In this document: piece after piece, positions 7-51,367 of the stretch | Numbering within the stretch: position 1 is the stretch's first letter | How the letters are laid out: each line of letters begins with the position of its first letter | Source: Rhodanobacter glycinis | Lineage (GTDB): Bacteria; Pseudomonadota; Gammaproteobacteria; Xanthomonadales; Rhodanobacteraceae | Length of the DNA stretch: 64,000 bases | Direction: 5' to 3' | NCBI RefSeq assembly: GCF_900114325.1 | Contig: NZ_FOSR01000001.1 | Coordinates: 141,693 to 205,692, forward strand | Notes under the pieces: model-generated | The model's input: the letters and a program-made list of their open reading frames with translations, nothing else | Database searches by the model: none | Told to the model about the DNA's origin: nothing | Translations under genes and position numbers: made by a program

Positions 7-104
7 CCCCTCACCCCAACCCTCTCCCCGGAGGGGAGAGGGAGAACACCAAGCGTTGAGCAACCGCGGCACGCGATGACTTCCTCTCCCCGCCGGGGAG
101 AGGG
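7..104. repeat. Family A palindromic repeat pair, copy 1
   Basis: Two hairpins are seen, CCCTCTCCCC/GGGGAGAGGG at 20-42 and CCTCTCCCC/GGGGAGAGG at 83-103. They are joined by about 40 bases and preceded by a CCCTCACCCC tract. The same architecture recurs at 25811, 27914, 28594 and 51215. It ends just past the stop codon of the minus-strand enoyl-CoA hydratase gene, so its hairpins could also help end that transcript. That role is inferred. Confidence 0.8.
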
Positions 105-4319: not shown

Positions 4320-5777
4320 TCAGGATTGCGGCTGGACGTCGGCGGTCCAGTGGTAATGCACGGCGTAGTCGAGCACGGCCTTGCCGTTGGCAGGCACGTT
4401 CACGCGGAACTCCAGCGTGTCGGTGGTCTGCTTGCTCGGCTTGCTGCTGGATGAGGTCAGCGTCCATTCGCGCCAGCGGTTCGGGTGCTCGCGCACGGTG
4501 ACGGTGCGTGCGTTGTCGCCGGCGTTGGTCAAGGTGATGCGGTACGCCTCGTCCATCGTGCGGCCGGCCTTGTCCACGTGGAAGGCGGTGCGTTCGCGGT
4601 TCGCACGCAGGTCGAACGCGGTGCCCAGGGTGATCGCGGCAGCGCTGCCCTTGGGCGTGTCGTCGATGCGGCCTTCGCCGATGAATTGCGGCACGCCGTG
4701 GCGGTCAGCCGTGAGCACGCGCAGGTAGCCGGCCGGCAGGCTGTCGAAAGCCTTGAGCTTCAGTGTGTCGACGACGGTGTTGCTGCTGCCGGTGTTGTAA
4801 TCGCGACCGAGCATCGGGTGCGACGGCGTCCAGGTACCGCCGTTCTCGTACAGCGCGGTGTGTTCGCAATCCAGCGTGCGCGGTGTGTACAGCGGCACCT
4901 GGCTGACGCTGCCGTCGGGCAGGTCCACGGTGCCGGGCAAGGTGTAGCTGCGGTAGTCGGCCAGTTGCGCCTGTTCGGGCATTGCCGGCGCGGCGGCGGC
5001 AAAGGACACCTTGGCCCGCATCATCATCGGGCGTGGCGCCGAATCCTTGGCGAAATTCGGCTCACCGGCGATCAAGGTGAGCTTCACGTCGCGCCAGTCG
5101 CGGCCACTGCGGTTGGCGATGCTGGCGCGCGATTCGAACTGCATGCGGCAGCTGCCACCCGGTTGCAGCGTGGCCACGTAGGCAGCGCGCCAGCCCAGGC
5201 CGGAGGTGGGATAGCTGAGCATCGCCTGCGTGTTGCCGGCATGCGCGGCGTCCACGCGCAGGTCGAGGCTGGAGCCGGTGGGGAAGTGGCTGTTGGCGCG
5301 CACCGCCGCGTATTGGCGCACCAGGGTGGTGCCGGATGCGCTGTGCACCAGCAGGCCGTCGCCGGCGCGCAGCAAGGTGCCCTGGGCCAGGGTTTCGCCA
5401 TTGCTGCCGAGCACGGTGATGTTTTGCCCGACCAGCCCGGTCATCGCCGCATCCGCGCCTTGTGCAAGCAACAGGCGTTGCGAGATGACTTTCGCACTGC
5501 CATCGGGGAAGCCCAGCGCCAGGGCCTCGGCGTCGATGTGGTCGGGCAGGTCGCCCAGCACCACGTCGTGGGTGCCGGACTGCAACGTCAGCGTGCGCTG
5601 CTCGCGGATCACGGCGTAACCGTCGTCAGCTCCACCGTTGCTGCTGCTGGCGTACAGCGCGGCGTTGTCGCTGCGGTAGAGCGTCATGCTGGCGTGGTCG
5701 GCGGCGTGCGCCAGCGGCACGCCGCCCAGCACGGTGGCACAGGCGAGGGCAAGGATGGTTCGATGCGGTGTCGTCAT
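4320..5777 (-). CDS. DUF4139 domain exported protein
   Basis: The 485-residue protein starts with a clear signal peptide (MTTPHRTILALACATVLGGVPLAHA) and is predicted to be periplasmic or outer-membrane associated. It reads as a DUF4139 protein: a beta-rich N-terminal region (SMTLYRSDNAALY, TLTLQSGTHDVVLGDLP) and a long C-terminal part with LGWRAAYVATL, TLIAGEPNF and YRITLTNAGDNARTVTVREH. Function in this family is unclear. Similar proteins have been loosely linked to polysaccharide or mucoidy phenotypes, which is not tested here. It probably shares a transcript with the downstream isomerase gene. Confidence 0.8.
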   Translation of the reverse strand: MTTPHRTILALACATVLGGVPLAHAADHASMTLYRSDNAALYASSSNGGADDGYAVIREQRTLTLQSGTHDVVLGDLPDHIDAEALALGFPDGSAKVISQRLLLAQGADAAMTGLVGQNITVLGSNGETLAQGTLLRAGDGLLVHSASGTTLVRQYAAVRANSHFPTGSSLDLRVDAAHAGNTQAMLSYPTSGLGWRAAYVATLQPGGSCRMQFESRASIANRSGRDWRDVKLTLIAGEPNFAKDSAPRPMMMRAKVSFAAAAPAMPEQAQLADYRSYTLPGTVDLPDGSVSQVPLYTPRTLDCEHTALYENGGTWTPSHPMLGRDYNTGSSNTVVDTLKLKAFDSLPAGYLRVLTADRHGVPQFIGEGRIDDTPKGSAAAITLGTAFDLRANRERTAFHVDKAGRTMDEAYRITLTNAGDNARTVTVREHPNRWREWTLTSSSSKPSKQTTDTLEFRVNVPANGKAVLDYAVHYHWTADVQPQS

Positions 5778-24722: not shown

Positions 24723-24934
24723 ACCCCAGTCACATGTTCTATCCGCAATCCACCACACACCGCCACGAGAACGTGGTCGGCGCGAGCATTATTATTATTT
24801 GAGGCAATCGCCCGAGCGCGTGCGCCTGCCGCCGCGCGTGGCGGGCGGTCAAACGGCGCTTCGGGGGTCCATAGCCCGGGGCGCAGACAACGCAAGGCCG
24901 CCATGACGACGGCCCTACAGATGGCACCCCAGCG

Positions 24935-27898
24935 ATGACCCAGGATTACAAGAGCACCATCAACCTGCCGCAGACGGATTTCCCGATGCGCGGCGATCTG
25001 CCCAAGCGCGAGCCGGGCTGGCTAGCCGAGTGGGAAAAGGCCGGCCGCTACGCGCAGATCCAGCAGAAGGCGGCCGGGCGCGACAAGGCGTTCGTGCTGC
25101 ACGATGGCCCGCCGTACGCCAATGGCGCGATCCATATCGGCCATGCGGTGAACAAGATCCTCAAGGACATGGTGGTGCGCTCGAAGCTGCTGGCCGGCTG
25201 CCGTGCACCGTACGTGCCGGGCTGGGATTGCCACGGCCTGCCGATCGAGATCGCGGTCGAGAAGAAGTTCGGCAAGCCGGGCGACAAGCTCGACGCCCGC
25301 GCCTTCCGCCAGAAGTGTCGTGAATACGCCGCCGAGCAGGTCGATGCGCAGCGTGCCGGCTTCAAGCGTCTGGGCGTGCTGGGTGATTGGGAAAACCCGT
25401 ACCGCACGATGGATTTCAAGTACGAGGCCGACATGATCCGCGCGCTGGCGCGCATCGTCGCCAATGGCCACGTGGTGCGCGGCGCCAAGCCGGTGCACTG
25501 GTGCTTCGATTGCGGTTCGGCGCTGGCCGAGGCCGAGATCGAATACGGCGACAAGCAGTCGCCGGCCGTGGACGTGGCTTATGACGCGGTCGACCCGAAG
25601 GCATTGGCTGCGAAGTTCGGCGTGGACGCCGGCGATGCCGTCGTCGCCGTGCCGATCTGGACCACCACGCCATGGACGCTGCCGGAAAGTCAGGCGGTGT
25701 CGCTGGGTGCGGAGCTGGAATACGCACTGGTCGAAGGCCCGGCGCGCGGCGGCAAGCGCGTGCTGCTGGTGATCGCCAGCCAGCTGGTCGACAAGTCGCT
25801 GGCCCGTTATTCCCCTCTCCCTCTGGGAGAGGGTGCCCGAAGGACGGGTGAGGGTACGGGCGAAGCGCGGCCTTCCGGCTCCGCCGAACCCTCACCCCCA
25901 GCCCCTCTCCCGCGGGGAGAGGGGAGCAAGGTGCTGGGCCATGTGGCGGGCGAAGCGCTCAACGGCACGCAGCTTCGCCACCCGTTCTACGAGCGCGTCG
26001 TGCCGGTGATCCTTGGCGATCACGTCAGTGCCGAGGACGGTACCGGTGCGGTGCATACCTCACCCGATCACGGCGTGGAAGATTTCGTGGTCGGCCGCGA
26101 GAACGGCATCGGCCTGCTCAACTACATCGGCGCACGCGGCACCTACCACGAAGGCACGCCGAAGGCCGGCGACCTCGACCTGGTCGGCATGCATATCTGG
26201 AAGGCCAACGACGCCATCGTCGAGCTGCTGCGTGCGCGTGGCGTGCTGCTGGCGCACGCGAAGATCGAACACAGCTATCCGAACTGCTGGCGCCACAAGA
26301 CGCCGGTGATCTTCCGCGCCACGCCGCAATGGTTCATCGGCATGGAGCAGGCGGGCCTGCGCGATACCGCGTTGAAGTCGATCAAGGACGTGCGCTGGGT
26401 GCCGGGCTGGGGCGAGGAACGCATCGCCGGCATGGTCGCCGGGCGCCCGGACTGGTGCATCAGCCGTCAGCGTACCTGGGGCGTGCCGATCGCGCTGTTC
26501 GTGCACAAGGCCACGCAGGAGCCGCATCCCGATTCCGTGGCGCTGCTGGAACAGGTGGCGAAGCGGGTGGAGCAGGGCAGCATCGATGCCTGGTACGACC
26601 TCGATCCGGCCGAGCTGCTGGGTGACCAGGCGAAGGATTACGACAAGGTCACCGACGTGCTGGACGTGTGGTTCGACTCCGGCGTCACCCATTTCGCGGT
26701 GATCGGCCAGCGGCCCGAGCTGCAGCAGGGCGACGCAAGCGAATACAAGGTGATGTACCTGGAAGGCTCGGACCAGCATCGCGGCTGGTTCCAGTCGTCG
26801 CTGCTCACTTCCAGCGCGATTCACGGCCGTGCGCCCTACGATGACGTGCTCACCCACGGGTTCGCCGTGGATGCGCAAGGCCGCAAGATGTCCAAGTCGC
26901 TGGGCAACGTGGTCGCGCCGCAGAAGGTGATGGATACGCTGGGCGCCGACGTGCTGCGCCTGTGGGTGGCTTCGGCCGACTACCGCAACGAGATGAGCGT
27001 CTCCGACGAGATCCTGAAGCGCGTGTCCGACAGCTATCGCCGCCTGCGCAACACCGCGCGCTTCCTGCTCGGCAATCTCGACGGTTTCGATCCGACGAAG
27101 CATCTGGTCAAGGTGGAAGACAGCCTGCCGCTGGACCAGTGGGCCGTGCAGCAGGCCTGCGACGTGCAGCAGGCGGTGATCGCCGCCTACGAGCGTTACG
27201 ACTTCCCCGAAGTGGTGGCGCGCGTGCAGAACTTCTGCACCAACGAGATGGGGGCGTTGTACCTGGACATCACCAAGGACCGCCTCTACACCATGCCCGC
27301 CGACAGTCACGGCCGGCGCAGCGCGCAGAGCGCGATGTACCGCATCGCCGAGGCGCTGGTGCGCTGGCTGGCGCCGATCCTGGGTTTCACCGCCGAGGAA
27401 ATCTGGCGCAGCCTGCCCGGCGAGCACGGCGAAAGCGTGCTGTTCGAAACCTGGTACGACGGGCTGGTCGCCACCCAGAACTCGCCCGAACAGCGGCGTT
27501 ACTGGCACGACCTGCTGGCGATCCGCGACACCGCTTCGCGCGTGCTCGAAGGTATGCGCAAGGGCGGCCAGATTGGCGCGGCGCTGGAAGCGAAGCTGAC
27601 AATCCATGCCGATGAGGCCACGGTGACGCGCTACGCGCCGGCGATGGACGAGCTGCGCTTCGTCTTCATCACCTCCGATGTGCGCCTGGACAAGGCCGGC
27701 GGCCAGCCGGAAGACGCCGTGCTCACCGAGTTGGAGGGCGCCGACGTGTGGGTCTCCGCCACGGTCAGCGACGCGGCCAAGTGCGTGCGTTGCTGGCACC
27801 GGCGTGATGACGTGGGCAGCCATGCCGACCACCCCGAACTGTGCGGCCGTTGCGTCGGCAATGTGGAAGGCCCGGGCGAAAGCCGCCGCTGGTTCTGA
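24935..27898 (+). CDS. ileS: Isoleucyl-tRNA synthetase with repeat-encoded insertion
   Basis: A 987-residue class Ia synthetase charging tRNA-Ile. HIGH lies at 67-70 (ANGAIHIGH), KMSKS at about 651-655, and the C-terminal zinc module has [16 protein letters not shown]. It is about 50 residues longer than the E. coli enzyme. Most of the excess is residues 293-330, which are translated from family A repeat 25811-25924 and rich in Gly/Pro/Glu/Arg. The insert lies in the CP1 editing domain, between [11 protein letters not shown] and [11 protein letters not shown], at a loop that varies between species. Reading frame and all catalytic motifs are intact, so the enzyme is expected to work. Confidence 0.97.
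25811..25924. repeat. Family A repeat, copy 2, in frame inside ileS
   Basis: The left hairpin CCCTCTCCCTCTGGGAGAGGG (25813-25833, with one mismatch allowed) and right hairpin CCCTCTCCCGCGGGGAGAGGG (25903-25923) flank GGTGAGGGT and ACCCTCACCC half-sites. This is the same layout as the intergenic copies. The translated product is rich in LPLGEGA and PLPRGEGS type segments. Its length keeps the ileS frame open with no stop codon. Confidence 0.93.
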
Positions 27899-27913
27899 CT
27901 CCTTGCCCTTCTT

Positions 27914-28043
27914 CCTCTCCCTCCGGGGAGAGGATCGAGGTGAGGGGCGGGTGCTAGCGAAAACCTTTCCAAAGCATGCTTCGACGTTACCTCAACGCAA
28001 GATTAGCCCCTCACCCCCAACCCTCTCCCCGCAGGGGAGAGGG
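27914..28043. repeat. Family A repeat, copy 3
   Basis: The left hairpin CCTCTCCCTCCGGGGAGAGG (27914-27933) and right hairpin CCCTCTCCCCGCAGGGGAGAGGG (28021-28043) flank GGTGAGGGGCGGG and CCCCTCACCCCC. The spacer is about 60 bases. It fills nearly the whole gap between ileS and lspA, placing a strong hairpin 28 bases before the lspA start. Confidence 0.88.
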
Positions 28044-28070
28044 AGTAAATCACCACGGCGCGATCAGCTC

Positions 28071-28571
28071 ATGACTCATCCCAAACCCAACGCCTTGCCC
28101 TGGCTGCTGCTTTCCGTCGTCGTCATCGCCCTGGACCAGCTCAGCAAATGGTGGGCATTGACCGGGCTGCAGCCGGGCGTGCCACACCCGGTGATTCCCG
28201 GTTTCCTCAATTGGACGCTGACCTTCAACCCCGGCGCGGCCTTCAGCTTCCTGGCCATGAGCGGCGGCTGGCAGCGCTGGTTCTTCGTGGTGCTGGCCAT
28301 CGTCATCAGCGCGGTGCTGGTGGTGTGGCTGGCACGTACCGCGCGGCGTGACTGGCGCACGGCACTGCCGCTGGCGCTGATCATCGGCGGCGCGCTGGGC
28401 AACCTGATCGATCGCCTGCATGCGGCCCAGGTCACCGATTTCATCGACGTCTACTACCGGAACTGGCATTACCCCGTGTTCAACATCGCCGACTGCGGGG
28501 TGACCGTCGGAGCGGTGATACTGGTGGTGTTCGGGCTGTTCGGCGGCACGGAAAAAGGCGGCGTGCGATAA
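28071..28571 (+). CDS. lspA: Prolipoprotein signal peptidase (SPase II)
   Basis: A 166-residue inner-membrane aspartic protease that cleaves lipoprotein signal peptides after lipidation. Four hydrophobic helices are seen. The catalytic aspartates lie in [20 protein letters not shown] and [23 protein letters not shown] marks TM1, and [10 protein letters not shown] is the conserved periplasmic loop. The ATG at 28071 gives the typical N terminus. It follows ileS in the common ileS-lspA-ispH order. No fkpB gene lies between lspA and ispH, unlike in E. coli. Confidence 0.95.
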
Positions 28572-28593
28572 TTGCTGCCTGCTCTCTATCACT

Positions 28594-28678
28594 CCCTCCC
28601 CTGCGTGCAGGGGAGGGTTGGGGAGGGGTAAGCCCGGTGCGCGACCCCCTCCATCTCCCCCTGCAAGCAGGGGGAGGG
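28594..28678. repeat. Family A-related repeat, copy 4
   Basis: Two hairpins, CCCTCCCCTGC/GCAGGGGAGGG (28594-28617) and TCCCCCTGC/GCAGGGGGA (28656-28675), are separated by GGGAGGGGT and CCCCCTCCA. The arms differ slightly from the CTCTCC type, so this is a subfamily. It fills the gap between lspA and ispH, where E. coli carries fkpB. Confidence 0.8.
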
Positions 28679-28698
28679 ACAAGGCCACGGCTTTTACT

Positions 28699-29643
28699 AT
28701 GGACATCCTGCTCGCCAATCCCCGCGGTTTCTGTGCCGGTGTCGACCGCGCCATTGCCATCGTCGACCGTGCGCTGGAATCCTACGGTGCGCCAATCTAC
28801 GTGCGGCACGAGGTGGTGCACAACCGCTACGTGGTCGACAAGCTGCGCCACGACGGCGCGGTGTTCGTCGAGGAACTGCACGAAGTGCCCGACGGTGCCA
28901 CGGTGATCTTCAGCGCCCATGGCGTGTCCAAGGCGGTGCGCGAGGAAGCCGAGCAACGCGACCTGAAGGTGTTCGACGCCACCTGTCCACTGGTCACCAA
29001 GGTGCACATGGAAGTGGCGCGACTAGGGCGCATCGGCCGCAGCGTGGTGCTGATCGGTCATGCCGGTCATCCGGAAGTGGAAGGCACCATGGGGCAGTGG
29101 AACCCTGCCAACACCGGCGAGATCCTGCTGGTCGAGTCGGTGGAGGATGTGGCCATGTTGACGCCGGCCTTCCCGCACCAGTTGTCCTACGTCACTCAGA
29201 CCACGTTGTCGGTGGACGACACCAAGGCGATCATCGCCGCCCTGCGCGAGAAATTCCCGGATGTCGAAGGCCCGCGCAAGGACGACATCTGCTACGCCAC
29301 GCAGAATCGCCAGGATGCCGTGCGCCGGCTCGCCGATGCGGTGGACTTGATGCTGGTGGTGGGCTCGGTCAACAGCTCCAACTCCAACCGCCTGCGCGAG
29401 CTGGCCGAGAAGCAGGGCGTGCGCGCCTATCTGATCGACGGCGCCGAACATATCGAACGCCAGTGGCTCGACGGCGTGCAACACATCGGCCTGACCGCGG
29501 GAGCCTCCGCCCCCGAGAAGCTGGTGCGTGACGTCATCGCCCGCCTGCAATCGTGGGGCGCGGGCGAAGTGCGCGAACTGGATGGCGAGCCGGAAAGCAT
29601 CACCTTCGCGTTGCCGAAAGAGCTGCGCGTCGTTACGCCCTGA
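28699..29643 (+). CDS. ispH: 4-hydroxy-3-methylbut-2-enyl diphosphate reductase
   Basis: This 314-residue [4Fe-4S] enzyme performs the last MEP-pathway step, making IPP and DMAPP. The three cluster cysteines are visible in [10 protein letters not shown] (about residue 12), [11 protein letters not shown] (about 96) and [10 protein letters not shown] (about 197). The catalytic glutamate region is [14 protein letters not shown], and the substrate-binding [13 protein letters not shown] and TAGASAPE follow. The ATG at 28699 gives the canonical [14 protein letters not shown]. Confidence 0.96.
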
Positions 29644-51189: not shown

Positions 51190-51214
51190 GAGGAAATGCT
51201 TCTTGCGTTGGCCT

Positions 51215-51345
51215 CCTCTCCCCCGTGGGGAGAGGATTGAGGTGAGGGGCGGGTGCTCGCGTGAGAGGTGATTTGCACGCGCTTCGTTGTCGGGCCGAGC
51301 CACGGTTGGCCTCTCACCTCAACCCTCTCCCCGGCGGGGAGAGGG
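51215..51345. repeat. Family A repeat, copy 5, between the two metH genes
   Basis: The left hairpin CCTCTCCCCC/GGGGAGAGG (51215-51235) with GGTGAGGGGCGGGTGCT, and right hairpin CCCTCTCCCC/GGGGAGAGGG (51323-51345) with CTCACCTCAA, match copy 3 most closely, including the GAGGTGAGGGGCGGGTGCT block. It fills the 178-base gap between the metH halves and lies just before the start of the second. Confidence 0.9.
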
Positions 51346-51367
51346 AGCAAGGCGCGGCGGGCGTGTC

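Follow-up and report, generated by a model that had tools for sequence, protein, structure and literature searches.

The isoleucyl-tRNA synthetase gene ileS of Rhodanobacter glycinis contains a palindromic repeat in frame. At this loop five codons are lost and the frame is kept, the repeat is patchily present among related species, several repeat families and junctions occur, and selection on the encoded peptide is not seen. On the sequence comparisons described below, it is likely that a CCYTCTCC-type palindrome is tolerated in this loop, and that its distribution results from reshuffling of a short block together with separate insertions. The stretch of 64,000 nucleotides that was analysed is called the window here, and its relevant features are compiled in Table 1.

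Table 1. Features of the window associated with the ileS insert and with palindromes used for comparison.
Feature	Position	Strand	Basis or remark
ileS, isoleucyl-tRNA synthetase (IleRS), 987 aa	24935..27898	+	one open frame; IleRS domains by Pfam
In-frame insert, 39 codons (residues 293-331)	25811..25927	+	genus alignment; repeat copies in genome
Hairpin 1, CCCTCTCCC-tct-GGGAGAGGG, perfect	25813..25833	+	
Inner half-site, 93% complementary to 25884-25897	25846..25859	+	
Spacer between two REP-like units	25855..25887	+	likeness greater among ileS inserts than other copies
Inner half-site, 93% complementary to 25846-25859	25884..25897	+	
Hairpin 2, CCCCTCTCCC-gcg-GGGAGAGGGG, perfect	25902..25924	+	
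One end of dimer of same kind, at window edge	7..42	.	comparison copy
Intergenic dimer, sister subfamily, between ileS and lspA	27911..28046	.	comparison copy
Third-family palindrome CCCTCCCC...GGGGAGGG, between lspA and ispH	28594..28684	.	comparison copy
Dimer, same sister subfamily as 27914 copy	51213..51348	.	comparison copy

In the protein, the insert is preceded by Arg-Tyr 291-292 and followed by Lys332-Val-Leu-Gly. An initial sequence-only reading had recognized a complete repeat with two hairpins in frame in ileS, which is borne out by the hairpins, the half-sites and the copies elsewhere in the genome. It had counted about 38 extra residues; an extra peptide is indeed present, but its exact size is 39 codons, which stand for five loop codons of relatives (such as GVESP) and amount to a net gain of 34 amino acids. 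Comparison with the empty alleles of relatives revealed no target duplication at the ileS insert, five codons being replaced instead. The RNA of positions 25805-25930 folds with -86.5 kcal/mol (z = -6.7), a value that none of 200 shuffled sequences equalled. In a search of positions 24900-29000 against Rfam nothing was found over the insert at E values up to 0.1; three chance-level matches below the gathering scores were all located near 28590-28681.

When compared with the genome from which the window is taken, the insert yielded at least 44 matches at no fewer than 35 distinct places, the ileS copy included; the genome copy count scored 40 out of 66 first-look candidates. The best copy elsewhere among the matches listed is 85% identical over 121 query bases (E = 8e-31). 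In view of these genome-wide matches the insert is a copy of a dispersed dimer, in which a REP-like unit, a spacer of about 32 nt and a second REP-like unit in opposite orientation follow each other (head to head). A short palindromic unit, many copies and oppositely oriented pairs are generic traits of REP and BIME sequences and are all found here. Each of the six reading frames is open in 19 to 36 of 43 other repeat copies, and because copies are so often open in any frame, the open frame of the insert is a weak statistic. An element end extended by GCGCGCT, a candidate reason for the left flank shared by ileS inserts, was seen in copies from genome G002, which had themselves been picked by that very pattern.

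Other palindromes of the window are less closely related to the insert than had been supposed. The same element had been placed at 7, 27914 and 51215; these are dimers of the same kind, but they belong to a sister subfamily, and the presumed related copy at 28594 represents a third palindrome family. Neither the copy at 7 nor that at 27914 is among the matches listed for the insert, and at 51215 the match is limited to 44 query bases. We take the frames 3' of ileS to be lspA and then ispH. In the gap between ileS and lspA (window 27899-28072; loci L065-L099 and L112) the palindrome families differ between relatives; types CCTCTCC, CCCTCCCC, GTTCGCCCTGAGC, GTAGGAGCGC and GTAGGGCGGGC were noted by eye in many of 33 gaps, and the palindromes of this gap appear to turn over fast.

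The insert-bearing gene appears to be the sole ileS. With residues 1-221 as the query, a second ileS was not found in the window's genome, where the next matches are 25-40% identical over parts. Likewise, all 14 of 14 insert-bearing genomes have one ileS match above 80% identity, and their remaining matches reach 23-40% over parts only (one of them, at 35%, with stops). The insert is placed between the conserved stretches WTTTPWTLP (242-250) and residues 369-380, which hold the editing site of IleRS. With 48 sequences as input, AlphaFold2 gave a model of the window's IleRS (mean pLDDT 78) that agrees with solved structures of this enzyme, the best match being 8c9f (TM 0.71), and another 1qu2 with tRNA. 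Confidence is lowest at residues 295-330, located between a helix (282-292) and a strand (333-338), with block means of about 28-30; it also falls below 50 in eight other short segments. The insert is unstructured in the model and predicted to form a flexible, disordered loop.

The loop was compared in the window's genus (15 genomes) and in a related genus (45 genomes), with one genome per species. Within the window's genus it is empty in 11 of 15 genomes, with six residues, mostly GxESPx, between Arg-Tyr and VLG(H). Dimer inserts are present in the window's genome, in G002 and in G014 (loops of 40, 41 and 43 residues), and G012 contains a single repeat unit in a loop of 18 residues, the insert letters being identical to those of Fulvimonas sp. 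R45 (L065). In the related genus a protein search gave a match in 44 of 45 genomes; among 40 readable genomes, 10 sites are insert-bearing and 30 empty. The five others comprise one genome with a weak match, one without a match, and three (G187, G189 and G204; loci L290-L292) whose sole match was an IleRS with about 44% identity to the query in the insert region, perhaps a second type of the enzyme. A repeat-derived peptide was present at the loop in six of 80 named ileS loci, i.e. those of Fulvimonas R45, Rhodanobacter fulvus Jip2, Rhodanobacter B05, FW106_bin.6 (a MAG named Rhodanobacter), L111 (the distant SulCav MAG, also named Rhodanobacter) and L144 (the distant MAG 66-474); a seventh, L121, carries such a peptide 17 codons downstream. 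A search of 233 family genomes for the common left-junction pattern gave matches in 27. Thirty loci were read out of 52 pattern places listed, and the 12 ileS genes among them all have the repeat directly after Arg-Tyr.

Since the loop is ordinary in 11 of 15 and 30 of 40 readable genomes, the insert is not an old protein feature. Such a feature merely resembling the repeat was ruled out, as relatives lack the insert and its DNA matches repeats elsewhere. In support of the initial reading, alignment with relatives placed the insert in some species only, with related copies elsewhere in the genome. The opposite outcome, the same residues encoded by diverged DNA in distant relatives, was not found: the distant relatives read have a short loop, with the exception of L111 and L144, where the repeat is from another family and the junction is slightly shifted. 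The initial reading had not anticipated that five codons were replaced, that the loop is used recurrently, or that insert alleles are dispersed across the gene tree.

Based on junction and repeat family, five insert classes can be distinguished at the ileS loop. In class i, represented by 12 genomes (four of the window's genus and eight of the related genus), a CCYTCTCC repeat directly follows Ala-Arg-Tyr. A CCTTCCCCC repeat begins two codons further on, after Gln-Arg-Tyr, in class ii (G171) and three codons on in class iii (L111 and L144). Class iv is a dimer located 12 codons on in G190, which might be a class-i insert altered later, and class v a CCTTCTCC repeat 17 codons after the Arg-Tyr site (L121, ileS near 4421). 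The ileS gene of FW106_bin.6 (L091) contains, behind the first repeat, a second one of the CCTTCCCCC family in the same loop. All five classes share one reading frame (LPxxGEGARRADEG-like). The four inserts of the window's genus, the 12 ileS loci from the pattern search, two further loci of the related genus and L121 are all in frame and free of stops. The distance from Arg-Tyr to V/ILGH ranges from 17 to 61 residues among insert alleles, some of which keep one unit only.

The repeat is not confined to ileS. Pfam domains flank it in one frame at three of the 35 places listed, i.e. in ileS, polA and hrpB; the coding check covered 20 of the open frames that span repeat places. The polA copy (L045 1501-1599; G000:C14:82107-82205) is in frame and lies in the linker between the 5'-3' and 3'-5' exonuclease domains, and repeat-like peptides were seen by eye in the polA linker of about nine of the 15 genomes of the window's genus. 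The hrpB copy (L004 1504-1614; G000:C14:162847-162960) is in frame before Helicase_C, although in another frame than in ileS. This loop is filled in seven of 13 genomes and short in the other six, with at least three different peptides (SLRERVAGGRERV..., LPSPASEAESVGRDSS... and GxGAGGEG...), which points to other frames or other repeats. The fillings in ileS, polA and hrpB suggest that a few protein loops are colonised repeatedly. It is plausible that the ileS loop was struck repeatedly because few other places tolerate the repeat.

We propose that a CCYTCTCC-type palindrome composed of two head-to-head REP-like units took the place of the five-residue loop in the editing (CP1) domain of ileS. 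It would be transcribed and translated together with the gene, and the resulting peptide probably stays in the protein. The insert may be tolerated because this loop would lie at the surface of the enzyme and frames in the repeat are often open. The commonest class, at least its dimers, probably goes back to one origin, and a block consisting of the insert and a few to tens of flanking bases would have been reshuffled among species by homologous recombination. Other repeats would have been inserted separately at the same loop.

Phylogenetic analysis places insert alleles among empty ones. On a codon tree of ileS (44 rows, insert columns removed; G006, L111, L144, L121, G171 and G190 being outside this tree) the distribution of the 12 class-i alleles requires 12 changes (11-12 over the bootstraps), and starred branches enforce nine of them. 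With shuffled labels the mean is 10.6 changes, so that the insert label is unclustered on the gene tree. Likewise, nine changes, four of them forced, are needed for the nine insert rows of a protein tree with 94 rows, from which G012 was left out (insert letters the same as in L065). Full and empty sisters are R. fulvus with Root480, G170 with R. thiooxydans LCS2, G191 with Soil772, G167 with 67-28 (100/100), G180 with OK091 (99/89) and G014 with G004 (99/96).

Half of the class-i alleles (six of 12) pair with an empty sister at starred (strong) support, which is what one would expect if each insert allele were a de novo insertion by a palindromic element with a preferred target, with no exchange between species. 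The several families and junctions at one loop are also in line with this model, as is the occupation of the ileS-lspA gap by different palindrome families in different relatives. We nevertheless regard it as unlikely, for three reasons. First, the spacers of the ileS dimers are shared across genera beyond what is seen in other copies: those of seven ileS dimers are 75% alike vs 59% among 43 other copies, none of 2000 random sets being as alike, and the excess holds for cross-genus pairs too. For the whole repeat the values are 81% vs 75% (11 of 2000 random sets; 46 of 2000 for cross-genus pairs). The choice of the 43 other copies works against this contrast, because they were partly picked by their likeness to one ileS insert. 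Second, in the related genus Ala (GCN) precedes all eight class-i inserts, whereas Gln (26) or Leu (4) occupies this position in the 30 empty alleles; in the window's genus Ala also precedes Arg-Tyr in nine of 11 empty alleles. Third, a strong common target is absent in other repeat copies, the exception being a T at -5, found in 43 of the 59 left ends.

The sequences next to the insert carry a signal that is short. Between the members of seven full/empty sister pairs, 78 differences fall in the left 45 nt and 59 in the right 45 nt (expected 16.7 each), vs 15 and 41 differences per 45 nt in seven empty/empty control pairs (expected 21.5). Codon changes at -45..-12 amount to 21 synonymous plus 13 non-synonymous ones, of 77, in the full/empty pairs vs three plus three, of 77, in the controls. 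Within the left 45 nt the nearest row is an insert allele for 11 of 12 insert alleles vs one of 27 empty alleles, and at a distance of 150-300 nt for three of 12 (left) and one of 12 (right) insert alleles; these counts, and the control that follows, were made without L071, L078, L086, L087 and L092. Most of the left-flank signal comes from the last 15 nt, as 50 of 300 shuffles reach the observed value for -45..-15, and it is gone at -60..-12 (215 of 300). To the right the signal is weak (0..45 reached by 8 of 300 shuffles), and a separate test of this flank found it absent or opposite (within genus 94-424 of 500, across genera 431-471 of 500). A donor sequence for the shared block was not found in the flank comparison. 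A Gln-to-Ala change coupled to the insert, or local mutagenesis, could contribute to the flank signal. The idea that a long tract of ileS moved from one genus to the other is without support, there being no excess likeness in the flanks beyond about 45 nt. The spacers relate the dimer inserts to one another across the two genera, and this suggests either the exchange of a short block or repeated gain and loss.

It is tempting to speculate that the palindrome behaves as an exchangeable allelic cassette whose hairpins provoke breakage, with repair from a related species swapping the insert and a short flank. We consider this mechanism doubtful. If true, the sequence of one IleRS loop would be replaced time and again across genera, with ordinary descent for the remainder of the gene.

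Cross-genus spacer divergence (0.16-0.38 at 32 sites) spans the divergence at fourfold sites of ileS (0.21-0.29), and the left junction is common to 12 genomes. Both observations are compatible with a single old insertion in the ancestor of the two genera, followed by vertical inheritance and many losses; for G180 and G191 the spacer divergence is 0.09 vs 0.22 at fourfold sites. This scenario seems rather improbable, however, because every loss must restore the six-residue loop, which is impossible by deletion, and because the empty alleles carry genus-typical loops (mostly GxESPx in the window's genus, often GLEQAx in the related genus). Moreover, the other families and junctions require further insertions anyway.

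That one loop is used again and again, and in a single frame by all five classes, might also indicate that the insert is useful, i.e. selected because the added loop alters editing by IleRS or its regulation. Most of the species read are without it, though, its loop varies from 17 to 61 residues with one unit only in some alleles, and pN/pS is 1.16 both for five ileS dimers (ileS_G014 and ileS_G170 not included) and for 43 other copies, 157 of 300 random sets of five being as low. We thus judge a useful insert to be very unlikely, and a selected peptide sequence is without support, pN/pS of the insert being the same as that of other copies. One unused frame had a pN/pS of 0.46 in the ileS dimers vs 0.86 in other copies. 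That the insert is cut from the mRNA or skipped by ribosomes, yielding a protein without it, is scarcely credible in spite of the very stable RNA hairpins, since frame and freedom from stops, needless under skipping, are kept in all inserts read and the Rfam search found nothing over the insert.

Translated palindromic repeats are already known from Rickettsia palindromic elements (RPEs), GTAG- and CGTC-tagged REPs, RU elements and MITEs. RPEs are palindromic repeats of 100-150 bp that are inserted in frame into conserved genes, at positions exposed to solvent (PMC3767692), and RPE-7 is listed for isoleucyl-tRNA synthetase in Table 1 of that article. The ileS repeat is likewise in frame within pre-existing conserved open reading frames, and a likeness to RPEs, suspected from the sequence at the outset, does hold in kind and by description: both are in-frame palindromic inserts in a conserved gene. 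The lineage that hosts RPEs is unrelated to the bacterium studied here, and in the excerpts of PMC3767692 at hand all aligned Rickettsia orthologs carry the insert, whereas the ileS loop is without it in most species. According to the same excerpts, orthologs can carry members of different RPE groups close together, and it is left open whether these represent hotspots of separate insertions or one diverged old insertion, the latter being favoured.

GTAG- and CGTC-tagged REPs occur as singles and dimers inside genes for DNA polymerase I, RNA helicase and tRNA synthetase, and recB was struck at about the same site in two Xanthomonas species (PMC3733652, available portion). Unlike in these REPs, GTAG and CGTC are each present within 10 nt outside the hairpin in just one of 98 unit ends of the ileS repeat, and several families at one loop across many species are not described for them in that portion. 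Hairpins of the ileS family are absent within about 1.5 kb of the two Y1_Tnp genes in the window's genome; one palindrome of the third family was found near them, in L154. The Y1-type transposase gene of L154 (G000:C8:105465-105785) is flanked by GTAGGAGCGCACC...GGTGCGCTCCTAC palindromes (GTAGGAGCGC family) and not by the ileS repeat. Enterobacterial RU-1/2/3 are small palindromic mobile sequences whose open frames are fused into genes; according to the sections of PMC2759123 consulted, none lies within conserved domains of superfamily proteins, in contrast to the ileS repeat, which interrupts one. MITEs are short, non-autonomous, palindromic and multi-copy, and in-frame fusions have been noted (PMC10969869, in part). 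By contrast, the ileS insertion lacks a target-site duplication and replaces five codons. Xanthomonas is not mentioned in the accessible part of PMC2267715. Among the papers listed in searches of the literature by words and by sequence letters, a description of the ileS repeat was not found, the letter matches being judged by title; papers beyond them may differ. The same applies, in the texts at hand, to the combination of several repeat families sharing a single loop of an essential gene, many species, a replacement junction and a mosaic distribution, for which the nearest hints in print are the RPEs of PMC3767692 and the recB remark of PMC3733652.

Palindromic repeats that join proteins are best known from Rickettsia. 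At the ileS loop, dimer, single-unit and empty alleles with varied families and junctions are present in close relatives, and this variety makes the choice between a hotspot and an old insertion directly testable at this place. Ranging from 6 to 61 residues, the loops of these alleles form a natural size series in an essential proofreading enzyme, and thus pose the question of what the editing domain tolerates.
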